From Treponema sp. (GTDB lineage: Bacteria > Spirochaetota > Spirochaetia > Treponematales > Breznakiellaceae), in contig JAIRWM010000142.1 of assembly GCA_031268975.1 (NCBI GenBank), positions 1-43,145 on the forward strand: DNA of 43,145 nucleotides, read 5' to 3'. Below the pieces are notes generated by a model that saw nothing but the letters and a program-made list of their open reading frames with translations, was not told the DNA's origin and made no database searches. Shown one piece after another: positions 10,491 through 28,579 of this stretch. Position 1 is the stretch's first letter. Each line of letters begins with the position of its first letter. A program made the translations under genes and the position numbers.

Positions 10491-12649
10491 GCGTCTTCCC
10501 CTTCCTCGCTTGAGTGAAGGTAATCGCAATCGGGGTTAATGCAGCCTTTGTGCGATCCGTTTTTCTTGTCGTACTTTTCCACCAGAAACCATCCGCATTT
10601 CGGGCAGCTTTGGCCGGGCAGGGGCTTAAAGTGGCTGATAAAGTCGCATTCAGGATACCCGGTACATCCGTAAAATTCTTTCCCCCGTCCCTTTGTTTTT
10701 CTCGCCACAATATCGCCTCCGCATTTTGGGCATGCGGCAAGCGGAATGGAACGGGTATTCCGGCATTCGGGAAAACCCTGGCAGGCGAGAAAAAAGCCGA
10801 ACCGGCCGAGTTTTTTTACCATGTGTTTTCCGCACTTTTCGCAGACAAGGTCTGTTATTTCGTCCAGAGAACCTTTGTAGGACTCAAGGGTTTTGCCGAC
10901 TTCGTCAACCTGCGTTTTAAACGGATCATAAAATTCCCGGATCATTTTGGGCCAGCTGGTGCGGTTGTCCTCCACTTCGTCAAGCTTTGTTTCCATTGTG
11001 GCGGTAAACGCCGCGTCGACAACGTGGGGGAAATATTCGCCCAGCATGTCGCTGATCATTTTTCCCAGGATGGTCGGCACAAGCTGCCTGTTTGACCGTG
11101 TTACGTAGTAACGGTCAAGAAGCACCGAAATGGTCGGCGCGTAGGTGGAAGGCCGGCCAATCCCTTTTTCTTCAAGTATTTTAACGATGGAAGCGTCCGT
11201 ATAACGGGGCGGCCCCTGGGTAAAATGCTGTTCACTGTAAAACTTTTCCGCGGTAAGAATGTCTCCTGTTTTTACGGCGGGAACAGATCCGCCTTTTTCG
11301 TCTTTTGCCGGAAGCAGTTTCAACACCTGCATAAAACCTTTCTTCAGCACTTTTGTTCCGGCCACCCTGAAAATCCCCTCGCCCGCGCCAATGTCGATAC
11401 TTATGGTGTTTGTTTTGGCGCTTTCCATCTGGCAGGCTACAAAGCGTTCCCAAATAACCGCGTAAAGCCTGTATTGATCCTTCGTAAGGGATTCTTTTAT
11501 CGAATCGGGTGTGTAATCAACGTATGTCGGACGAATTGCTTCGTGTGCGTCCTGGGCTTTTTTTCCCACGGCATATTCCACAGGGGCGCCGGGCAGATCG
11601 CCGGGATAGTTTTTCCCAATCCACGCCCGCACTTCCTGGATGGCAAGCTGGGAAATACGCACGGAGTCTGTACGCATATATGTAATAAGCCCGACCCTGC
11701 CCTCGCCGATGTTTACCCCTTCGTAGAGCTGCTGGGCAACCTGCATGGTTTTTTTGCTGGTAAAGCCAAGCCTGTTCGCCGCTGTCTGCTGCATCTGGCT
11801 TGTGGTAAAAGGCGGTTTGGGCTTTACCGTTTTTTCCGTCTGCCGTATGTCTTTAACCACACATTCGGTGTTTTGCAGTTTTTCAATAAGGGCCGTGACT
11901 TCCGCCTCTGATTTTAGTTCCGGCTTTTTTCCCTGCCACAAAACAAGCTGGGCGGTGAACGCCGAATGCCGCGACGAAGTTTTTTCCGTCTTGAAATCTG
12001 CGTCCAGGGTCCAGTATTCTTCGGGAGTAAACGACTCAACTTCCTTTTCACGTTCGCATATAAGGCGTAACGCTACCGACTGAACACGTCCGGCGGAAAG
12101 GCCGTTCTTTACTTTTTTCCAGAGCAGCGGCGAAAGGCTGTATCCCACAAGCCGGTCAAGAACCCGCCGGGCTTTTTGGGCGTTTACTTTCGCTTCGTCA
12201 ATTCCGGCCGGATTGGCGACCGCGTCTTTAATGGCCTGCGGCGTTATTTCGTTAAAGCTTATCCGCTTTATGGGAACATTTTTTGTCTTCGCGCTGATGG
12301 CGTTCCGCAAATGCCAGGCTATGGCTTCCCCTTCCCTGTCGTTATCGCTTGCCAGCAGCACTTCTCCGGATTTTTTCGCGTCACTTTGCAGCTCTTTAAG
12401 AAGCTTTGCCCTGCCCCGTACCGTTATATATTCAGGCTCAAATTCATGATCCACGTCTATCGCCATTCTGGATTTTGGGAGATCGATAAGATGACCCATG
12501 GACGCTTTGACGGTATAGGAACCTCCAAGGTATTTCTCAATGGTTTTTGCCTTGGCCGGAGATTCAACTATTACCAGTGTCTTTTTTTCGGCCTTTTTTG
12601 TTTTCCGCGCGTTTGTTCCGCCGGTTTCGGTTTTTCCGTTTTCAGTCAT
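10487..12649 (-). CDS. topA: DNA topoisomerase I
   Basis: TopA relaxes negative supercoils through a 5'-phosphotyrosine intermediate. The toprim domain has V-I-V-E-S-P-A-K-A-K at about 26-35 and the acidic S-D-N-D-R-E-G-E block at about 101-108. The active-site Tyr is about residue 324 in ITYMRTDS. The C-terminus has three four-Cys zinc ribbons, each of the C-x2-C ... C-x4-C type. I start at 12649, giving 720 residues, because this ATG overlaps the dprA stop as ATGA; the longer frame from 12781 adds 44 residues that merely shadow dprA. A Lys/Thr-rich N-terminal lead of about 22 residues precedes the toprim fold. Confidence 0.96.
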   Translation of the reverse strand: MTENGKTETGGTNARKTKKAEKKTLVIVESPAKAKTIEKYLGGSYTVKASMGHLIDLPKSRMAIDVDHEFEPEYITVRGRAKLLKELQSDAKKSGEVLLASDNDREGEAIAWHLRNAISAKTKNVPIKRISFNEITPQAIKDAVANPAGIDEAKVNAQKARRVLDRLVGYSLSPLLWKKVKNGLSAGRVQSVALRLICEREKEVESFTPEEYWTLDADFKTEKTSSRHSAFTAQLVLWQGKKPELKSEAEVTALIEKLQNTECVVKDIRQTEKTVKPKPPFTTSQMQQTAANRLGFTSKKTMQVAQQLYEGVNIGEGRVGLITYMRTDSVRISQLAIQEVRAWIGKNYPGDLPGAPVEYAVGKKAQDAHEAIRPTYVDYTPDSIKESLTKDQYRLYAVIWERFVACQMESAKTNTISIDIGAGEGIFRVAGTKVLKKGFMQVLKLLPAKDEKGGSVPAVKTGDILTAEKFYSEQHFTQGPPRYTDASIVKILEEKGIGRPSTYAPTISVLLDRYYVTRSNRQLVPTILGKMISDMLGEYFPHVVDAAFTATMETKLDEVEDNRTSWPKMIREFYDPFKTQVDEVGKTLESYKGSLDEITDLVCEKCGKHMVKKLGRFGFFLACQGFPECRNTRSIPLAACPKCGGDIVARKTKGRGKEFYGCTGYPECDFISHFKPLPGQSCPKCGWFLVEKYDKKNGSHKGCINPDCDYLHSSEEGEDA

Positions 12650-13524
12650 GGCGCCTCGCTTGTGCATACATTCCATTCGGCCAGAATATCCGCCGCGGAA
12701 ACTACTGTCCCACAGCCGTCTTCCGCCAGCTTTCTTGTTCCGCCGCCCCGGGGAGAAAGCAGACCCGCTTTTCCGGCCCAAAGATCCCTGCCCTGTTCAA
12801 GGGCAAAACGCGCCGTATGCAGCGCGCCTGAATGTTCCGGAGCTTCCACAATTACCGTCCCCCGGGCAAGGCCGGAAATAATACGGTTTCTTTCCGGGAA
12901 ATTCCACCTGTAGGGTTTTGTTCCCGGGGGATATTCGCTGACAACGGCCCCGCCCGATTCCAGAATACGTTTTGCCAGAGGCCTGTTCGACGCCGGATAA
13001 AGTTCGTCAAGACCGGAACCGAGTACGGCGACGGTAACGCCGCCTCCGTCAAGGCAGCCCCGGTGGGCCATGGCGTCAATCCCCAGCGCGAGGCCCGATA
13101 TAACGGCGATCCCCGCTTTGGCAAGGGAACGGCCAAGGGAATAAGCCTGGGCGGAACCGGCGGGGCTGGGTTTGCGGGTGCCGACAAGCGCCGCCGAAGG
13201 TTTTTCCGGATCGGGCAGACGGCCCAGATAATACAGCAAAAACGGCGGATTGTATATTTCACCAAGCAGGGGCGGATAACCGGCCTGCCCGCAGCGTACC
13301 CGGCGAATGCCCCGCGTACGGAACGCCGCTTCGTGCCGCTGTGCGCACGCGAAAATTTCATCCATTGTGCGGAACTTTCCCCGCACGGACCGTCTCAGGA
13401 AAAGTTCCAGGTCCTGCTTTGTGGAGAAGGGGAACTTTTCTTCCCTGTCAAATTTTTCCAGAACCCGAAGCCGTTCAGAGCAGCTTAGTCCCGGAATAAG
13501 GGCAACCGCTACATCGCTAACCAT
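12646..13524 (-). CDS. dprA: DNA-processing protein DprA (Smf)
   Basis: DprA binds incoming single-stranded DNA and loads RecA during transformation; it is also widespread in bacteria not known to be competent. The 292-residue protein has an N-terminal helical region (about 1-75) and the Rossmann-like core with G-T-R-K-P-S, G-L-A-L-G-I-D-A-x-A-H, and a S-E-Y-P-P-G-T-K-P segment followed by F-P-E-R-N-R-I-I. It ends soon after the core, so the C-terminal winged helix (DML1-like) found in many DprA proteins is missing. It overlaps the TPR gene by 8 bp and topA by 4 bp. The dprA-topA-xerC order is common in Gram-positive bacteria as well. Confidence 0.94.
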   Translation of the reverse strand: MVSDVAVALIPGLSCSERLRVLEKFDREEKFPFSTKQDLELFLRRSVRGKFRTMDEIFACAQRHEAAFRTRGIRRVRCGQAGYPPLLGEIYNPPFLLYYLGRLPDPEKPSAALVGTRKPSPAGSAQAYSLGRSLAKAGIAVISGLALGIDAMAHRGCLDGGGVTVAVLGSGLDELYPASNRPLAKRILESGGAVVSEYPPGTKPYRWNFPERNRIISGLARGTVIVEAPEHSGALHTARFALEQGRDLWAGKAGLLSPRGGGTRKLAEDGCGTVVSAADILAEWNVCTSEAP

Positions 13525-23275: not shown

Positions 23276-23722
23276 TTATAAATCGAAGGATCCCATCTCC
23301 TCCAAAACATTCACTAAATGTTCATCACTGGCCTGTTCATACGAACGGTAATGTTCCATATCCCAAAGCTCAATGCGCCTGCCGTTGCTTGTCACCGTGC
23401 AATCTTTGGCAAGAAACGCGAAGTCCCGCAGTTTCTGGGGAACGGCAATGCGCCCCGCTTTGTCAATTTCGGCCTCGTAAGTTGAAAAAAGAAAACGGTG
23501 CTGGACTATGTCGGCCTTTTTTATGGACAGCGAAGCGGCATTGGCCTGAAGCCTGGAGGAAAACTGCTCCCACTGGCTCTGGGTAAAGGCCCACACGCAG
23601 CGCTCTATCCCTTTTGTAAGGACGAGTACGTTGTCGGGAATGCCTTCCCTGAACTTTGCCGGAATGCTCAGCCGTCCCTTGTCGTCAAGGGTTGCCGAAT
23701 ATTCCCCGCTTAACACCATCAT
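23276..23722 (-). CDS. mraZ: Transcriptional regulator MraZ
   Basis: MraZ is an AbrB-fold DNA-binding protein that heads dcw operons and represses or tunes its own promoter in several bacteria. It has 148 residues with two swapped-hairpin domains, each with the signature D-x-K-G-R-L-S-I-P-A-K-F-R (about 14-26) or D-K-A-G-R-I-A-V-P-Q-K-L-R (about 87-99). The start ATGATG lies behind an AAGG ribosome binding site. Three TGGG/A-type boxes spaced exactly 10 bp apart lie 20-45 bp upstream, the arrangement MraZ is known to bind, so autoregulation is likely. Confidence 0.96.
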   Translation of the reverse strand: MMVLSGEYSATLDDKGRLSIPAKFREGIPDNVLVLTKGIERCVWAFTQSQWEQFSSRLQANAASLSIKKADIVQHRFLFSTYEAEIDKAGRIAVPQKLRDFAFLAKDCTVTSNGRRIELWDMEHYRSYEQASDEHLVNVLEEMGSFDL

Positions 23723-23741: not shown

Positions 23742-23766
23742 TTCCAACTTTTCCCACTTTCTCCCA
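23742..23766 (-). promoter_or_regulatory. Predicted MraZ operator, three 10-bp-spaced boxes
   Basis: On the minus strand, reading toward mraZ, the boxes are TGGGA (23766-23762), TGGGA (23756-23752) and TGGAA (23746-23742), each start exactly 10 bp from the next. MraZ binds as a ring to several TGGG-type direct repeats separated by about 5 bp, which this matches. The first box touches the -10 element and the others lie over the transcript start, so binding should block initiation. Confidence 0.7.
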
Positions 23767-23794
23767 TTATGAAAACGTTTTTTCGATTGGTCAA
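23766..23794 (-). promoter_or_regulatory. Predicted sigma70 promoter of the mraZ operon
   Basis: Reading on the minus strand there is TTGACC (23794-23789), a 17-bp spacer, and CATAAT (23771-23766). These are five of six matches to each consensus hexamer. The predicted start is near 23759, about 37 nt before the mraZ ATG. It is the only clear promoter I found for the 24-gene run. Confidence 0.7.
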
Positions 23795-23920: not shown

Positions 23921-24193
23921 ATGTTTCAGGAAGACTATTACATCGTTTTTCCGGAAGGCGACGTGCAGGAAATTTCGGGAAGAATCCCGATGAACAGCAT
24001 GGTGGACATGAACGGTCGTCCGCTGGCGCTGCCGCTTCCCACCAACAAAATGATCGTATTCAGGGTACAACGGGTGCGGACGGTTGAAAACAAGGGTATA
24101 AGCGAAACCTTCCATTACCTGGAACTGGTAAGCTCCGATGAACTTCTCGGCCTTGTAAAAAATTCAAGGACTGTCGTGGATGACTCCTTCTAG
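23921..24193 (+). CDS. Conserved-looking small protein of unknown function
   Basis: This 90-residue acidic, soluble protein has no membrane segment or signal peptide, and I do not recognise a family. The pattern of short hydrophobic strands separated by charged turns (Y-Y-I-V-F-P-E-G-D, K-M-I-V-F-R-V-Q-R-V, F-H-Y-L-E-L-V) suggests a small beta-rich fold. The frame is open from a TTG at 23885, but that codon lies in the predicted -35 element, so I prefer the ATG at 23921. The gene is divergent from mraZ and overlaps the next gene by 14 bp, so the two are probably co-transcribed and may work together. Confidence 0.65.
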   Translation: MFQEDYYIVFPEGDVQEISGRIPMNSMVDMNGRPLALPLPTNKMIVFRVQRVRTVENKGISETFHYLELVSSDELLGLVKNSRTVVDDSF

Positions 24194-24950
24194 GAAAAAA
24201 AAGAAAACCCACCGAATCGGTACGGAAAATGAAAGCAGCCTGCACCGGACGCTTAAATTCCGTTACGCGGATCCGGGCAAAACCGAAGAGGACCGGGCAG
24301 GGTTTGTCTGCGACGCCGTGGGCCCGGACGGCGAGGCGGTTGAAATCCAGACAGGCAATTTCAGCGCCCTGAAAAACAAAATCCCCGCCCTGGCCGCCCG
24401 GGGCAGGATACGGCTTGTTTACCCGGTAATCGTTACAAAAACCATAGAACTGTACGACATTGGCGGAAATTTAATTTCGAGGCGGAAAAGTCCCCGAAAG
24501 GGTTCCATGTGGGATATTTTCGGCGAACTTATTTACGCCCCCTCACTGATGAACCTGCGCCGCCTCACCGTGGAAATCGCTTTTGTGGACGCTACCGAGC
24601 GCCGCCGGGACGACGGACAGGGTTCCTGGAGGCGGAAGGGGGTAAGCATTGAAGACAGAAGCCTTGATCTGTTTCGTGAAAGCCTTATATTGCGAAAAAA
24701 AGCGGACTGGCGGCGTTTTCTCCCGGTAAAGGGAGAATTCACCGCCAGGGATCTGGCGGAAAAAACACACATCAGGCCGGCGCTTGCCCGCAAAACACTC
24801 TACGTACTCGAAAAGGCCGGCATTGTGGAAAAAATCCGCAAAGCCGGCCGAAGCTGGCTGTTCAGAACGGCCGCCGTAAACGGGAAAAACGTCCCGGCGC
24901 AGGCGGGCAACCCTGCGCCGGCGGATAGCCCGGGGAAGGAAGCCGGCTGA
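24180..24950 (+). CDS. Predicted PD-(D/E)XK-like protein with C-terminal winged helix
   Basis: The function is not established. The N-terminal half resembles restriction-endonuclease-fold proteins: Glu16 in G-T-E-N-E-S-S-L-H, Asp45, then a hydrophobic strand with E-I-Q (55-57) and Lys65, an E-x-Q variant of the D...E-x-K active site. It is followed by R-I-R-L-V-Y-P-V and a long charged middle. Residues about 186-232 read as a winged helix (F-T-A-R-D-L-A-E ... A-L-A-R-K-T-L-Y-V-L-E-K-A-G-I-V). The 256-residue protein ends in a Pro/Ala-rich tail. I recall similar E-I-Q-T-G proteins annotated only as domains of unknown function. It could be a DNA repair or defence nuclease, or a nuclease-derived regulator. 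Confidence 0.6.
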   Translation: MTPSRKKKKTHRIGTENESSLHRTLKFRYADPGKTEEDRAGFVCDAVGPDGEAVEIQTGNFSALKNKIPALAARGRIRLVYPVIVTKTIELYDIGGNLISRRKSPRKGSMWDIFGELIYAPSLMNLRRLTVEIAFVDATERRRDDGQGSWRRKGVSIEDRSLDLFRESLILRKKADWRRFLPVKGEFTARDLAEKTHIRPALARKTLYVLEKAGIVEKIRKAGRSWLFRTAAVNGKNVPAQAGNPAPADSPGKEAG

Positions 24951-24970: not shown

Positions 24971-25969
24971 TTACGCCTGTCCCGCGGAACCGAGTACGTT
25001 TTTGTTTTTGTCGATGTACATTTTCTTTAACTCGTCCCGGGCGGGGCCGAGATACTTGCGGGGATCAAATTCATCCGGCTTTTCGGCAAAAACCCTGCGG
25101 ATTACGGCGGTCATCGCCAGCCGCCCATCGCTGTCAATGTTGATCTTGCATACCGCGCTCTTTGCCGCGGTACGGAGCTGTTCTTCGGGAATACCCACCG
25201 AATCGGGCAGTTTGCCGCCGTATTGCTCGATGATTTTTACATATTCAATGGGCACCGAAGACGATCCATGGAGCACGATGGGAAAACCGGGTATCTGTTT
25301 TTCGATTTCCTTCAAGATGTCAAAACGCAGCGGGGGCGGAATAAGAATGCCGTTGGCATCCTTCGTGCACTGTTCCGGTTTGAACTTCGCCCTTCCGTGA
25401 CTGGTTCCGATGGAGATAGCCAGCGAATCGACGCCGGTTTTTTTGACAAAATCGACAACCTCGGACGGCTGGGTATAGTGGCTCTGTTCCGCGGCTACGT
25501 CGTCCTCGACACCCGCCAAAACGCCCAGTTCGCCTTCCACGGTTACATAATCCTTGCGGGAGTGGGCGAATTCACAGACCTTTTTCGTCAACTCCACATT
25601 TTCGTCGTAGGATTTGCTTGACCCGTCAATCATGACACTGGAAAAACCGGTTTCTATACAATCCTTACACAGTTCAAACGTATCACCGTGATCCAGATGC
25701 AGTACGATGGGGATATCGCAGCCCAGTTCATGGGCGTATTCCACGGCGCCACGCGCCATGTTTTTCAGCAAATTCTGGTTGGCATATTTACGGGCGCCCG
25801 AAGACACCTGAAGAATGACCGGAGATTTTGTTTCCACACAGGCCTGGATGATGGCCTGCATCTGCTCCATATTGTTAAAATTGTAGGCGGGGATGGCATA
25901 TCCGCCCGAAACCGCCTTTTTAAAAAGTTCCCGGGTATTAACGAGGCCCAATTCTTTATAGCTGGTCAT
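24971..25969 (-). CDS. fba: Class II fructose-bisphosphate aldolase
   Basis: This enzyme cleaves fructose-1,6-bisphosphate into glyceraldehyde-3-phosphate and dihydroxyacetone phosphate in glycolysis. It is the zinc-dependent class II type: I-P-A-Y-N-F-N-N near residues 26-33, catalytic Asp93 and zinc ligand His94 in H-L-D-H-G-D, Glu145 in V-E-G-E-L-G, a G-T-S-H-G segment (His191) and a later L-H-G-S-S-S loop. The length of 332 is typical. A strong AAGGAG ribosome binding site precedes the ATG. It is a single gene, convergent with the nuclease-like gene and divergent from an exported unknown; an aldolase gene close to flaA is also seen in pathogenic treponemes, as far as I recall. Confidence 0.96.
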   Translation of the reverse strand: MTSYKELGLVNTRELFKKAVSGGYAIPAYNFNNMEQMQAIIQACVETKSPVILQVSSGARKYANQNLLKNMARGAVEYAHELGCDIPIVLHLDHGDTFELCKDCIETGFSSVMIDGSSKSYDENVELTKKVCEFAHSRKDYVTVEGELGVLAGVEDDVAAEQSHYTQPSEVVDFVKKTGVDSLAISIGTSHGRAKFKPEQCTKDANGILIPPPLRFDILKEIEKQIPGFPIVLHGSSSVPIEYVKIIEQYGGKLPDSVGIPEEQLRTAAKSAVCKINIDSDGRLAMTAVIRRVFAEKPDEFDPRKYLGPARDELKKMYIDKNKNVLGSAGQA

Positions 25970-25981
25970 AGTTTCTCCTTA

Positions 25982-26031
25982 CTGAAAGATTATTTATTCT
26001 GGAGTATAGTGAAAAAGCACCGCGAAGAAAA
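25982..26031. promoter_or_regulatory. Divergent promoters with overlapping -10 elements
   Basis: On the minus strand TATACT (26008-26003) lies upstream of fba with a poor -35 (TTTTCT at 26031-26026, 17-bp spacer). On the plus strand CTGAAA (25982-25987), 17 bp, TATAGT (26005-26010) could serve the gene at 26043. The two -10 hexamers overlap by four bases, so polymerase binding in one direction would exclude the other. Hexamer matches are moderate. Confidence 0.4.
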
Positions 26032-26042
26032 GAGGAGCGAAG

Positions 26043-26930
26043 GTGATACACAATCCGCCTGTTTCAAACAGGTTCCGGGCGCTTTTTGCCGTTATCTGCG
26101 GCGTTTTTCTTGCCGGCGTGGTTTTCTGCGCCCGGCGGCCCGTCGTGTTGGTCAACGACGCGGCTTTTGCCCTGCTCTATGGAAAGCGCCGTGCCTGGGT
26201 AAAAAAAGCCGGCCTGGAACTGCTGCTTTTCAGGCGGATTAAAACAGCCGTTGTCGCGGAAAGCGCCGGGCCCGATCTGGTTTCCCTCGCCGCCGCCATG
26301 GCCTCCAAACGGCCGTACGCCGTTTTTTTCCCCTACCGCTACCGGGAAGGGGCTCTGCGCTACCACAGGGATCACCCGGATGCGCCCGCCGCCCTGCTGG
26401 CAGGCCGGAAAAAACCGCCGGAAAGCGCGGCGGCGGAAGGCGGCGGGCTGGCCTGGTATTCGACGGATACGCCCACGGACCTGTACCGCGCCGGATTCTG
26501 CGCCGCCGCTCTGGCGGGAGACGGCGAAATCCTGGTTATCCACAGCGGGGCGCTCGCTCCGGAAGAAACGGCCGCTTTTCGGGCCGGGGCGGGAACGGCT
26601 TCCGTCAGCTTCGCGCCGCCGGGGATGAACGCTCCCGAAAGGACGGCCTGCGCCGTACTGCCCGGAACGGAGAAGATTCCCGAAGGAGACACGGAGCTTC
26701 CATTTATTTTGTACACCTGGCTTGATCCGGCGCTCCTCCCGGAAGAGGCCGCGGTCGTTTTCAGCGATTCCCCGTGGGAGGCCCTTCCGGCGGCGCTCGC
26801 TCTGCTGGAAGAAGGGCAGCTTCTGGGAACCATTCCTTCGGAAATAACGGTTTTGGGAAAGAAAACGCGCGATCTGTCTACAGTGCAGATAAAAAGGCTA
26901 ATTTTTTCTCCGGCGGGGGCGGATAATTAA
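26043..26930 (+). CDS. Exported or membrane-anchored protein of unknown function
   Basis: This 295-residue protein starts at GTG behind GAGGAG. It has one N-terminal hydrophobic segment (about residues 12-30) after a basic stretch, so it is exported. The Cys at the end of this segment is preceded by Val-Val-Phe, which does not fit a lipobox, so a membrane anchor is more likely than a lipoprotein. The rest alternates beta strands and helices (V-V-L-V-N-D-A-A-F-A, Y-A-V-F-F-P-Y-R-Y, I-L-V-I-H-S-G-A-L-A), reminiscent of type I periplasmic binding folds, but no specific family motif is visible. The sequence is very Ala/Pro rich. It lies just upstream of the flaA genes, though these have their own promoter. 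Confidence 0.75.
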   Translation: MIHNPPVSNRFRALFAVICGVFLAGVVFCARRPVVLVNDAAFALLYGKRRAWVKKAGLELLLFRRIKTAVVAESAGPDLVSLAAAMASKRPYAVFFPYRYREGALRYHRDHPDAPAALLAGRKKPPESAAAEGGGLAWYSTDTPTDLYRAGFCAAALAGDGEILVIHSGALAPEETAAFRAGAGTASVSFAPPGMNAPERTACAVLPGTEKIPEGDTELPFILYTWLDPALLPEEAAVVFSDSPWEALPAALALLEEGQLLGTIPSEITVLGKKTRDLSTVQIKRLIFSPAGADN

Positions 26931-26948
26931 AGAAAACCACATAGGGGT

Positions 26949-26977
26949 TTGACAAAGAGACGCTAAAGGCATATAAT
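26949..26977 (+). promoter_or_regulatory. Perfect-consensus sigma70 promoter of the flaA operon
   Basis: TTGACA (26949-26954), a 17-bp spacer and TATAAT (26972-26977) match the housekeeping consensus at all twelve positions. The start is predicted near 26984, and a strong AAAAGGAG ribosome binding site (27008-27015) precedes the ATG at 27023. Sigma70-type control of flaA, in contrast to sigma28 control of core flagellins, has been reported in other spirochaetes. Confidence 0.9.
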
Positions 26978-27022
26978 TTAGCTGACTTCATTTTCCATTG
27001 CATCGCGAAAAGGAGTATTGGG

Positions 27023-27853
27023 ATGAAACATGGTAGTTTTAGGGTTTTTCTCATCGTCTTGCTGGCGGGGGCGGCCCTGACGGCATTCGGTGATGACTTT
27101 ACCGTTAACCTGGAATCGAAAATTGTGGAGAACTTCGACAACGCGGAGGGCTCCAAATATGTCTGGAAAAAAGAAGCCAGCCGATACGCGGTCGGCAAGG
27201 ACGAAACCGACAGGGATAACCCGTCTTTCGCCAATTTTGGGCTGGAAGGCGGTGATTTTTTCCCCAAAATCGATCACAAGGAAGGATGGCCGATGGCCCT
27301 GTTCAGAAACAACAGGGACGGCAGGGATCTTAAAATTCTGGGGATCTGGGGCAAATTCAAGAGGATGGGATACAATTGGATAGACATCTACCCGACCGCG
27401 GCAGCCGACGGGGAAGACGCGGGGCCGTACGAAATTCCCCTTCCCGGCCGGGTGAGGTACCTGGATATGTGGGTCTGGGGTTCAAACCTTAACTACTATC
27501 TGGAAGCCTATATACGGGACCAGCAGGGTGTGGTCCATACCATCTACATGGGCAATCTTGGGTACCAGGGCTGGAAAAATCTCCGTTCTTCGATTCCTAC
27601 TTCCATTCCCCAGCGCCGCCGGATCATCCTGGATCCCAAATCGTCCGGCATGACCAGCGCGGAAGAACGGAACAATATTTACCTCAAATTTGTCAAATTC
27701 CGTATTTGGACTACCCCTTCGGAGGCGGTTGGTAATTTCTATATTTACCTTGACCAGTTCAAGGTATTGACCGATACATTTGAATCCCTCTACGACGGAG
27801 ACGACTTGACGGATCCCGACTGGATACGGGAAAACTGGGATTCGGGTAATTAA
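27023..27853 (+). CDS. FlaA-family flagellar filament outer-layer protein (first copy)
   Basis: FlaA-family proteins form the sheath around the FlaB core of spirochaete periplasmic filaments and are exported through Sec. The 276-residue product has a cleavable signal peptide ending A-F-G (about residue 23) and mature residues starting D-D-F-T-V. The body is beta rich, with the family's aromatic motifs: M-G-Y-N-W-I-D-I-Y-P, L-D-M-W-V-W-G-S-N-L-N-Y, I-Y-M-G-N-L-G-Y-Q-G-W-K-N-L, and F-Y-I-Y-L-D-Q-F-K near the C-terminus. Nine bases separate it from a second, shorter copy with the same motifs. I do not assign FlaA1 or FlaA2. Confidence 0.9.
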   Translation: MKHGSFRVFLIVLLAGAALTAFGDDFTVNLESKIVENFDNAEGSKYVWKKEASRYAVGKDETDRDNPSFANFGLEGGDFFPKIDHKEGWPMALFRNNRDGRDLKILGIWGKFKRMGYNWIDIYPTAAADGEDAGPYEIPLPGRVRYLDMWVWGSNLNYYLEAYIRDQQGVVHTIYMGNLGYQGWKNLRSSIPTSIPQRRRIILDPKSSGMTSAEERNNIYLKFVKFRIWTTPSEAVGNFYIYLDQFKVLTDTFESLYDGDDLTDPDWIRENWDSGN

Positions 27854-27862
27854 GGAGACGCC

Positions 27863-28579
27863 ATGAAACGCTATATTTTTACCGTCTTGATTGTTCTTCT
27901 CGCTTCAGGGCTTTTTGCCCAGGAGATTGGGGAGCCGGACGCCGCCCAGCTTGGCATAATGGAAGCCCAGCAGAAACTTAAAGAGATTTCGGTAGATAAG
28001 TTTGAATATGACGGTTTTTGGATGTCTACCATGTCAACGGACGAAGGGTATCCTACGACAAGACTGTTTGACGGGGGCCCCGCGGCCAAAGTGCCCATTC
28101 CGGAAGAAGAGGGCCTTGATATTCCGGACAAGTATGTTCTTGGCACCCGTGTGGATTTTCTCCACCGGGGCTACAACAGCTTTACCATCTACCCCATGCG
28201 GCCGGTTCCCATTGAGGGTATCACCAAAACGGTTTCCGTCTGGGTAGCCGGCAGGAACTTTAACCACGAACTTAACCTGCTTATTGAAGACGCCTTCGGA
28301 CGTTACTTTGAGCTCTACATGGGCAAGCTGAATTTCCAGGGCTGGAAAAAAATGACGGTGGCCATTCCTCCCCAGGCCCTTGACGGGGTGCACGGCATAG
28401 TACAGCGGAACTACCACTACAACAACATGATGGGCCTGCGGATTACCGGTTTCCGTATTGACTGTGATCCCATGGAAGCCTACGGTTCCTACTATATCTA
28501 CTTTGACGATCTGCGCGCCGTGACCGATCTCTTTGCCGAACAGATTAAGGATATCGACGATCCCAGCGACATGTGGTAA
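27863..28579 (+). CDS. flaA: FlaA-family flagellar filament outer-layer protein (second copy)
   Basis: This second Sec-exported sheath protein has 238 residues, with a signal peptide ending L-F-A before Q-E-I-G (cleavage near residue 19-20). Motifs match the copy upstream and other spirochaete FlaA proteins: R-G-Y-N-S-F-T-I-Y-P, V-S-V-W-V-A-G-R-N-F-N-H, L-Y-M-G-K-L-N-F-Q-G-W-K-K-M and Y-Y-I-Y-F-D-D-L-R. The two copies are clearly related but well diverged, so they probably form a heteromeric sheath rather than being redundant. It is co-transcribed with the first copy and followed by a strong terminator. A GGAGA ribosome binding site lies 5 nt before the ATG. Confidence 0.92.
   Translation: MKRYIFTVLIVLLASGLFAQEIGEPDAAQLGIMEAQQKLKEISVDKFEYDGFWMSTMSTDEGYPTTRLFDGGPAAKVPIPEEEGLDIPDKYVLGTRVDFLHRGYNSFTIYPMRPVPIEGITKTVSVWVAGRNFNHELNLLIEDAFGRYFELYMGKLNFQGWKKMTVAIPPQALDGVHGIVQRNYHYNNMMGLRITGFRIDCDPMEAYGSYYIYFDDLRAVTDLFAEQIKDIDDPSDMW

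Follow-up and report, generated by a model that had tools for sequence, protein, structure and literature searches.

A CoiA-like PD-EXQ protein with a C-terminal winged helix, encoded beside mraZ in a Treponema-like spirochaete

TnsA, one of the families considered here, consists of a nuclease with a C-terminal winged helix, and YaeQ is a PD-(D/E)XK variant not known to carry a winged helix. The superfamily study of Feder and Bujnicki assigns SfsA to the PD-(D/E)XK fold, reports EXQ as an active-site variant of BglII and CoiA, and describes CoiA as a PD-EXQ variant like BglII, with a conserved arginine at the place of the moved lysine of COG4636 (PMC1189080).

The window analysed here is a stretch of 43,145 nucleotides from a spirochaete draft assembly of 213 contigs, and among its relatives the named ones are Treponema-like genomes, most of them metagenome-derived. 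It encodes a protein of 256 residues (24180-24950, + strand), the fold, domain order, invariant site and distribution of which were computed here. We consider it probable that this protein is an active, metal-dependent PD-(D/E)XK DNA nuclease, composed of a CoiA-related core and a DNA-binding winged helix, and that it serves as a vertically inherited housekeeping enzyme, most likely in recombination or repair.

Gene, fold and domain architecture

The open reading frame at 24180-24950, proposed in a preliminary description made from the sequence, is present in the ORF list, and ATG 24180 is its sole in-frame start ahead of the conserved region. The dN/dS values of 0.12-0.26, obtained for four pairs of relatives, indicate that the gene is real and under purifying selection. 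Two AlphaFold2 models, of the full-length protein (pLDDT 90.9) and of the N-domain alone (pLDDT 92.0), contain the alpha-beta-beta-beta-alpha-beta core of the PD-(D/E)XK fold, on which the preliminary description had staked its nuclease claim. The successive elements are a helix (residues 20-30), three strands (34-39, 42-47 with D45, 53-56 with E55), a second helix (61-74, with K67) and a further strand (77-92).

The N-terminal restriction-endonuclease-like domain comprises residues 11-172 (24210-24695, + strand), as delimited by the separate model and by structural matches. The C-terminal winged helix occupies residues 174-230 (24699-24869, + strand); it had been anticipated, and it is recovered in the model elements, in HTH profiles that match weakly at about residues 181-230, and in structural matches to winged-helix proteins. 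These weak profiles and matches resemble the MarR/ArsR/TrmB kind, and the Pfam cut-off was not reached by any HTH match, MarR/ArsR-type included. When the whole protein served as the fold-search query, winged-helix proteins crowded the results, and the N-domain was therefore predicted and searched alone; the whole-protein search of a viral structure library gave no convincing full-length match. Similarity to eS25 and TFE, confined to the winged-helix end, was set aside.

Among PDB chains the N-domain matches have modest Z-scores, and the best of them, YaeQ (3c0u, Z 7.0, rmsd 3.6 over 109 residues), falls where the tool warns of common arrangements. Further YaeQ matches (Z 6.6, 6.6 and 6.1) are accompanied by SfsA bound to DNA (4dav, Z 5.5, rmsd 3.3 over 113), PaqCI (8epx, Z 5.3, rmsd 4.3 over 112), SPO1766 (Z 5.0), the small subunit of R.BspD6I (2p14, Z 4.4, rmsd 3.6 over 97) and BglII (1d2i, Z 4.2, rmsd 4.1 over 108), with AF2093 at rank 5. 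YaeQ and SPO1766 belong to the restriction-endonuclease-like, or PD-(D/E)XK, fold. The first plainly unrelated fold, ketopantoate reductase, stands at rank 12 and is tied with BglII (Z 4.2); lower in the list OkrAI, BamHI and XPF are interspersed with unrelated folds. Foldseek returned nothing below E 0.001 for the N-domain; its best match was again YaeQ (E 0.028), and unrelated folds appear in its own list from the fourth rank downwards.

Active site and relation to CoiA

Conservation was assessed on 126 distinct rows of at least 190 residues each, derived from 178 hits. Most of these homologues belong to the family of the window (80 loci being the best 80 of 221 relatives), and conservation is for this reason firmest there; five families of the window's order and three from other classes are represented as well. 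Eight polar residues, E18, H22, K26, E36, D45, E55, Q57 and K67, are each present in 126/126 homologues, as is S104, and the same eight are among the invariant residues of a 44-sequence alignment (A1). They are arranged as follows: (i) the helix 1 signature E18-x3-H22-x3-K26 (24231-24257, + strand), which is also invariant, with identical spacing, in the CoiA alignment; (ii) E36 on strand 1 to D45 on strand 2 (24285-24314, + strand), the latter a predicted metal ligand; (iii) the EXQ half-motif E55-I56-Q57 of strand 3 (24342-24350, + strand), the middle residue of which is V in 79 homologues and I in 47; (iv) K67 of helix 2 (24378-24380, + strand), the predicted swapped catalytic lysine, at a place taken by arginine in CoiA (PMC1189080).

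The preliminary description had read E16, D45, E-I-Q at 55-57 and K65 as a degenerate PD-(D/E)XK site. The pattern of residues is genuine and well beyond what chance would give; D45 and E-I-Q stand where they were placed, while the two outer residues were each off by two. Position 16 is E in only 37/126 homologues, and the lysine that the window has at position 65 recurs in only 60/126; the conserved residues close to them are E18 and K67. Lack of conservation at the site, named beforehand as grounds for abandoning the claim, was looked for among the 126 homologues, and conservation was found: the set E18/D45/E55-x-Q57/K67 is invariant and amounts to a PD-EXQ variant that is conserved and not degenerate. 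As far as sequence can tell, D45, E55, Q57, K67 and E18 would provide the acidic pair and the Lys/Gln of a PD-(D/E)XK member. E18, D45 and E55 would hold the metal, and Q57 and K67 would stand in for the usual lysine and complete the site; the winged helix may grip DNA and position the catalytic core, which would cut DNA intermediates of recombination or repair. The conserved site does not in itself prove that the substrate is DNA and not RNA.

The kinship with CoiA was traced through a family alignment (A3) of 15 proteins from plasmid, phage and spirochaete genes. In it E59, H63, K67, D96, E109 and Q111 are invariant and E84 and R123 nearly so, Arg123 being conserved at 90% or more. The resulting signature, E-x3-H-x3-K ... 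E ... D ... E-x-Q ... basic, is present in the window protein, with lysine replacing the arginine. A comparison of profiles with PD-(D/E)XK families, proposed in the preliminary description, matched the CoiA nuclease domain. With hhalign, the window family (44 sequences) gave E 2.3e-4, a score reached by 0/300 column shuffles, and a 127-row profile gave E 1.3e-4 (probability 54%), whereas seven unrelated families in the same 127-row comparison gave E 0.043 or more. The hhalign probability for the nuclease domain lies at 44-54%, and the full-length comparison with CoiA is weaker (E 0.0029, probability 10.6%). As positive control, the link already published between CoiA and Uma2 gave E 3.5e-5. 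SfsA (E 0.41), Mrr (E 0.065, with 4/300 shuffles reaching the score) and Uma2 (PF05685; E 0.13, 23/300 shuffles) gave no significant match to the window family.

The CoiA model PF06054 gives no match to the window protein even at E values as high as 1; across 296 genomes it matches in 3, in none of them at the nuclease gene. The N-terminal C-x2-C ... H part of CoiA, resembling a zinc ribbon and present in A3, is absent from the window protein. Because this part is missing and PF06054 scores no member, the protein was not filed under CoiA; by its sequence it is CoiA-like and not a CoiA. In three genomes of one genus of the window's order (L089, L090 and L091), a PF06054 CoiA-family gene exists besides the CoiA-like gene.

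Scans of Pfam, NCBIfam, PHROG and PADLOC with the window protein and 44 members gave no N-domain model among the matches listed (for the 44 members at most 25 families per scan, in one scan the best 25 of 27), and sequence comparison with solved structures yielded no useful E-value for the N-domain or for CoiA. The catalytic core is already known in kind; what the libraries searched did not yield is the combination of a CoiA-type core, its lysine variant, a C-terminal winged helix and a gene core to the order.

Distribution and gene neighbourhood

Homologues of the nuclease gene were detected in 46/58 relatives and in 62/296 genomes sampled from the phylum, including one winged-helix-only match (G298) and one split gene (G229). 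The same order accounts for 55 of its 59 genomes, the rest of the class for 1 (winged helix only) and other classes for 6. The gene is chromosomal, single-copy and vertical-looking, and it is kept in a reduced genome of 1.14 Mb of the window's order. Plasmid, phage and viral contigs held no relative (best E 0.2 and 1 in two collections, none in the third). The fold, shared with restriction enzymes, would suit a defence or restriction nuclease, but such a role is very improbable, because the plasmid, phage and viral contigs searched lack the gene and it is near-universal in the order. Its vertical-looking, single-copy character speaks against this role too, the PADLOC matches are weak HTH only, and no methylase partner is conserved beside the gene.

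A competence nuclease proper would, like CoiA, act on incoming DNA during natural transformation. The CoiA-like core agrees with this, as does the presence of ComEC and DprA in each of the 26 genomes tested from the order, and a study on S. pneumoniae reports that deletion of coiA strongly lowers transformation (PMC3661451). However, ComEC and DprA are found equally in 16/16 genomes from elsewhere in the class; being present in 42/42 genomes, with or without the nuclease gene, they are uninformative on a link to DNA uptake. No competence gene is adjacent to the nuclease gene, the near-universal presence of which in the order points to a broader task, and we judge a dedicated competence role quite unlikely.

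A general recombination or repair nuclease, the reading preferred here, would assign a function to a hypothetical protein that almost every member of the order retains. In T. pallidum the gene presumably bears the tag TP0665 or TP0666. The literature searched under these presumed tags contained no mention of it, and '0665' was not found in the main text of a study devoted to hypothetical proteins of T. pallidum (PMC4403809).

The nuclease gene overlaps by 14 nt (24180-24193) a small conserved gene of 90 aa (23921-24193, + strand), supported by an alignment (A5) and by its distribution; the window's small protein has no Pfam match. Both genes diverge from mraZ (23276-23722, - strand; PF02381, E 1.6e-31), the first gene of the dcw cluster. 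Overlap and divergence had both been described correctly, and from them a two-gene unit had been proposed, with co-occurrence as the check. The small gene is present in 24/296 genomes and both genes in 14, adjacent in 11 and on different contigs in 3; 10 genomes hold the small gene alone and 48 the nuclease gene alone, one of them as winged helix only. The unit thus finds partial support, the small gene being tied more to mraZ. In 8/9 loci examined away from the nuclease gene, from several families of the phylum, it is still head-to-head with mraZ, and it is thus primarily a neighbour of mraZ. The pair is a lineage-specific arrangement.

In samples biased to the window's family, mraZ is divergent in 77 of 120 distinct loci with at least 1 kb upstream, the small gene lies directly upstream in 69 of these 120, and flaA is convergent in 63 of 109 loci with at least 1.4 kb downstream. 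Outside two families the nuclease gene sits elsewhere, its neighbours are not conserved and they give no functional hint; the neighbours met with there (amidohydrolase, Mo-oxidoreductase, HrpB helicase, SpoIIE, thiolase, AAA_14 and others) differ from one family to the next. The position beside the mraZ promoter and flaA, together with a winged helix of the MarR/ArsR/TrmB kind, would suit a transcription regulator from a nuclease ancestor, binding operators such as those of mraZ or flaA and retaining the N-domain as a dead fold for dimerisation or ligand sensing. This is unlikely: the eight polar signature residues are kept in 126/126 homologues, no winged-helix position reaches 98%, and the site is also kept in other families where the gene sits away from mraZ. 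The preliminary description had left the choice between a DNA-processing enzyme and a regulator descended from one. Fold, winged helix and conserved site agree with its proposal, and an active enzyme is the likelier of the two since the site is invariant, not degenerate.

MraZ binds TGGG repeats. The shared intergenic region contains a promoter of mraZ (TTGACC-17-CATAAT) together with three TGGGA-like repeats (23742-23794, - strand). The repeats start at 23766, 23756 and 23746, with a spacing of 10 nt, and lie at -44, -34 and -24 of mraZ, just past its -10 box. TGGG-N6-TGGG occurs in 45/90 distinct mraZ upstream regions, against 0.18 expected from mononucleotide shuffles, and the array looks like a putative MraZ operator; a search of the literature on MraZ operators yielded nothing useful. 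As this region holds both the mraZ promoter and the repeats, co-regulation is possible. A broader proposal, possible but doubtful, is a new nuclease family core to the order, with a CoiA-type domain and a winged helix, that serves general homologous recombination or repair and, in part of the order, is expressed from the MraZ-repeat intergenic region, tying DNA processing to the division cluster. If true, the nuclease gene of the 1.14-Mb reduced genome would be a candidate for its unidentified recombination nuclease.

Further features of the window concern its wider gene order. A block of fba, an unknown gene and two flaA genes (24971-28579) is reversed relative to two genomes of the same genus (L002 and L045), in which flaA and the nuclease gene converge directly; it reflects either an inversion or an assembly effect. 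A 295-aa protein without a Pfam match (26043-26930, + strand) is encoded beside flaA in relatives too. A dprA homologue (12646-13524, - strand) lies about 11 kb from the nuclease gene, and in many relatives dprA is likewise 10-12 kb from the nuclease or the small gene.

Comparison with known nucleases

Alongside CoiA, the window protein would be another carrier of the CoiA-type catalytic core, distinct in construction, and the searches turned up no solved structure of this core. Among the families compared, the CoiA nuclease domain (PF06054, COG4469) is its best profile match, and both share, in the same order, E-x3-H-x3-K on helix 1, E, D, E-x-Q and a basic residue on helix 2. They differ in that residue, Arg in CoiA and Lys in the window protein, and in their ends: CoiA has an N-terminal zinc-ribbon-like C-x2-C / H part, which the window protein lacks, and has its own C-terminal region where the window protein has a winged helix. 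The YaeQ family is the best match in structure comparison (Z 7.0 over 109 residues). In Uma2 and COG4636 the basic residue has likewise moved to the next helix, as stated in the cited study (PMC1189080), but the profile comparison with the window family is not significant (E 0.13). BglII shares the PD-EXQ active-site variant, according to the same study (PMC1189080), and its fold matches at Z 4.2; it is, however, a type II restriction enzyme, the likeness of which to the window protein rests on fold and site.
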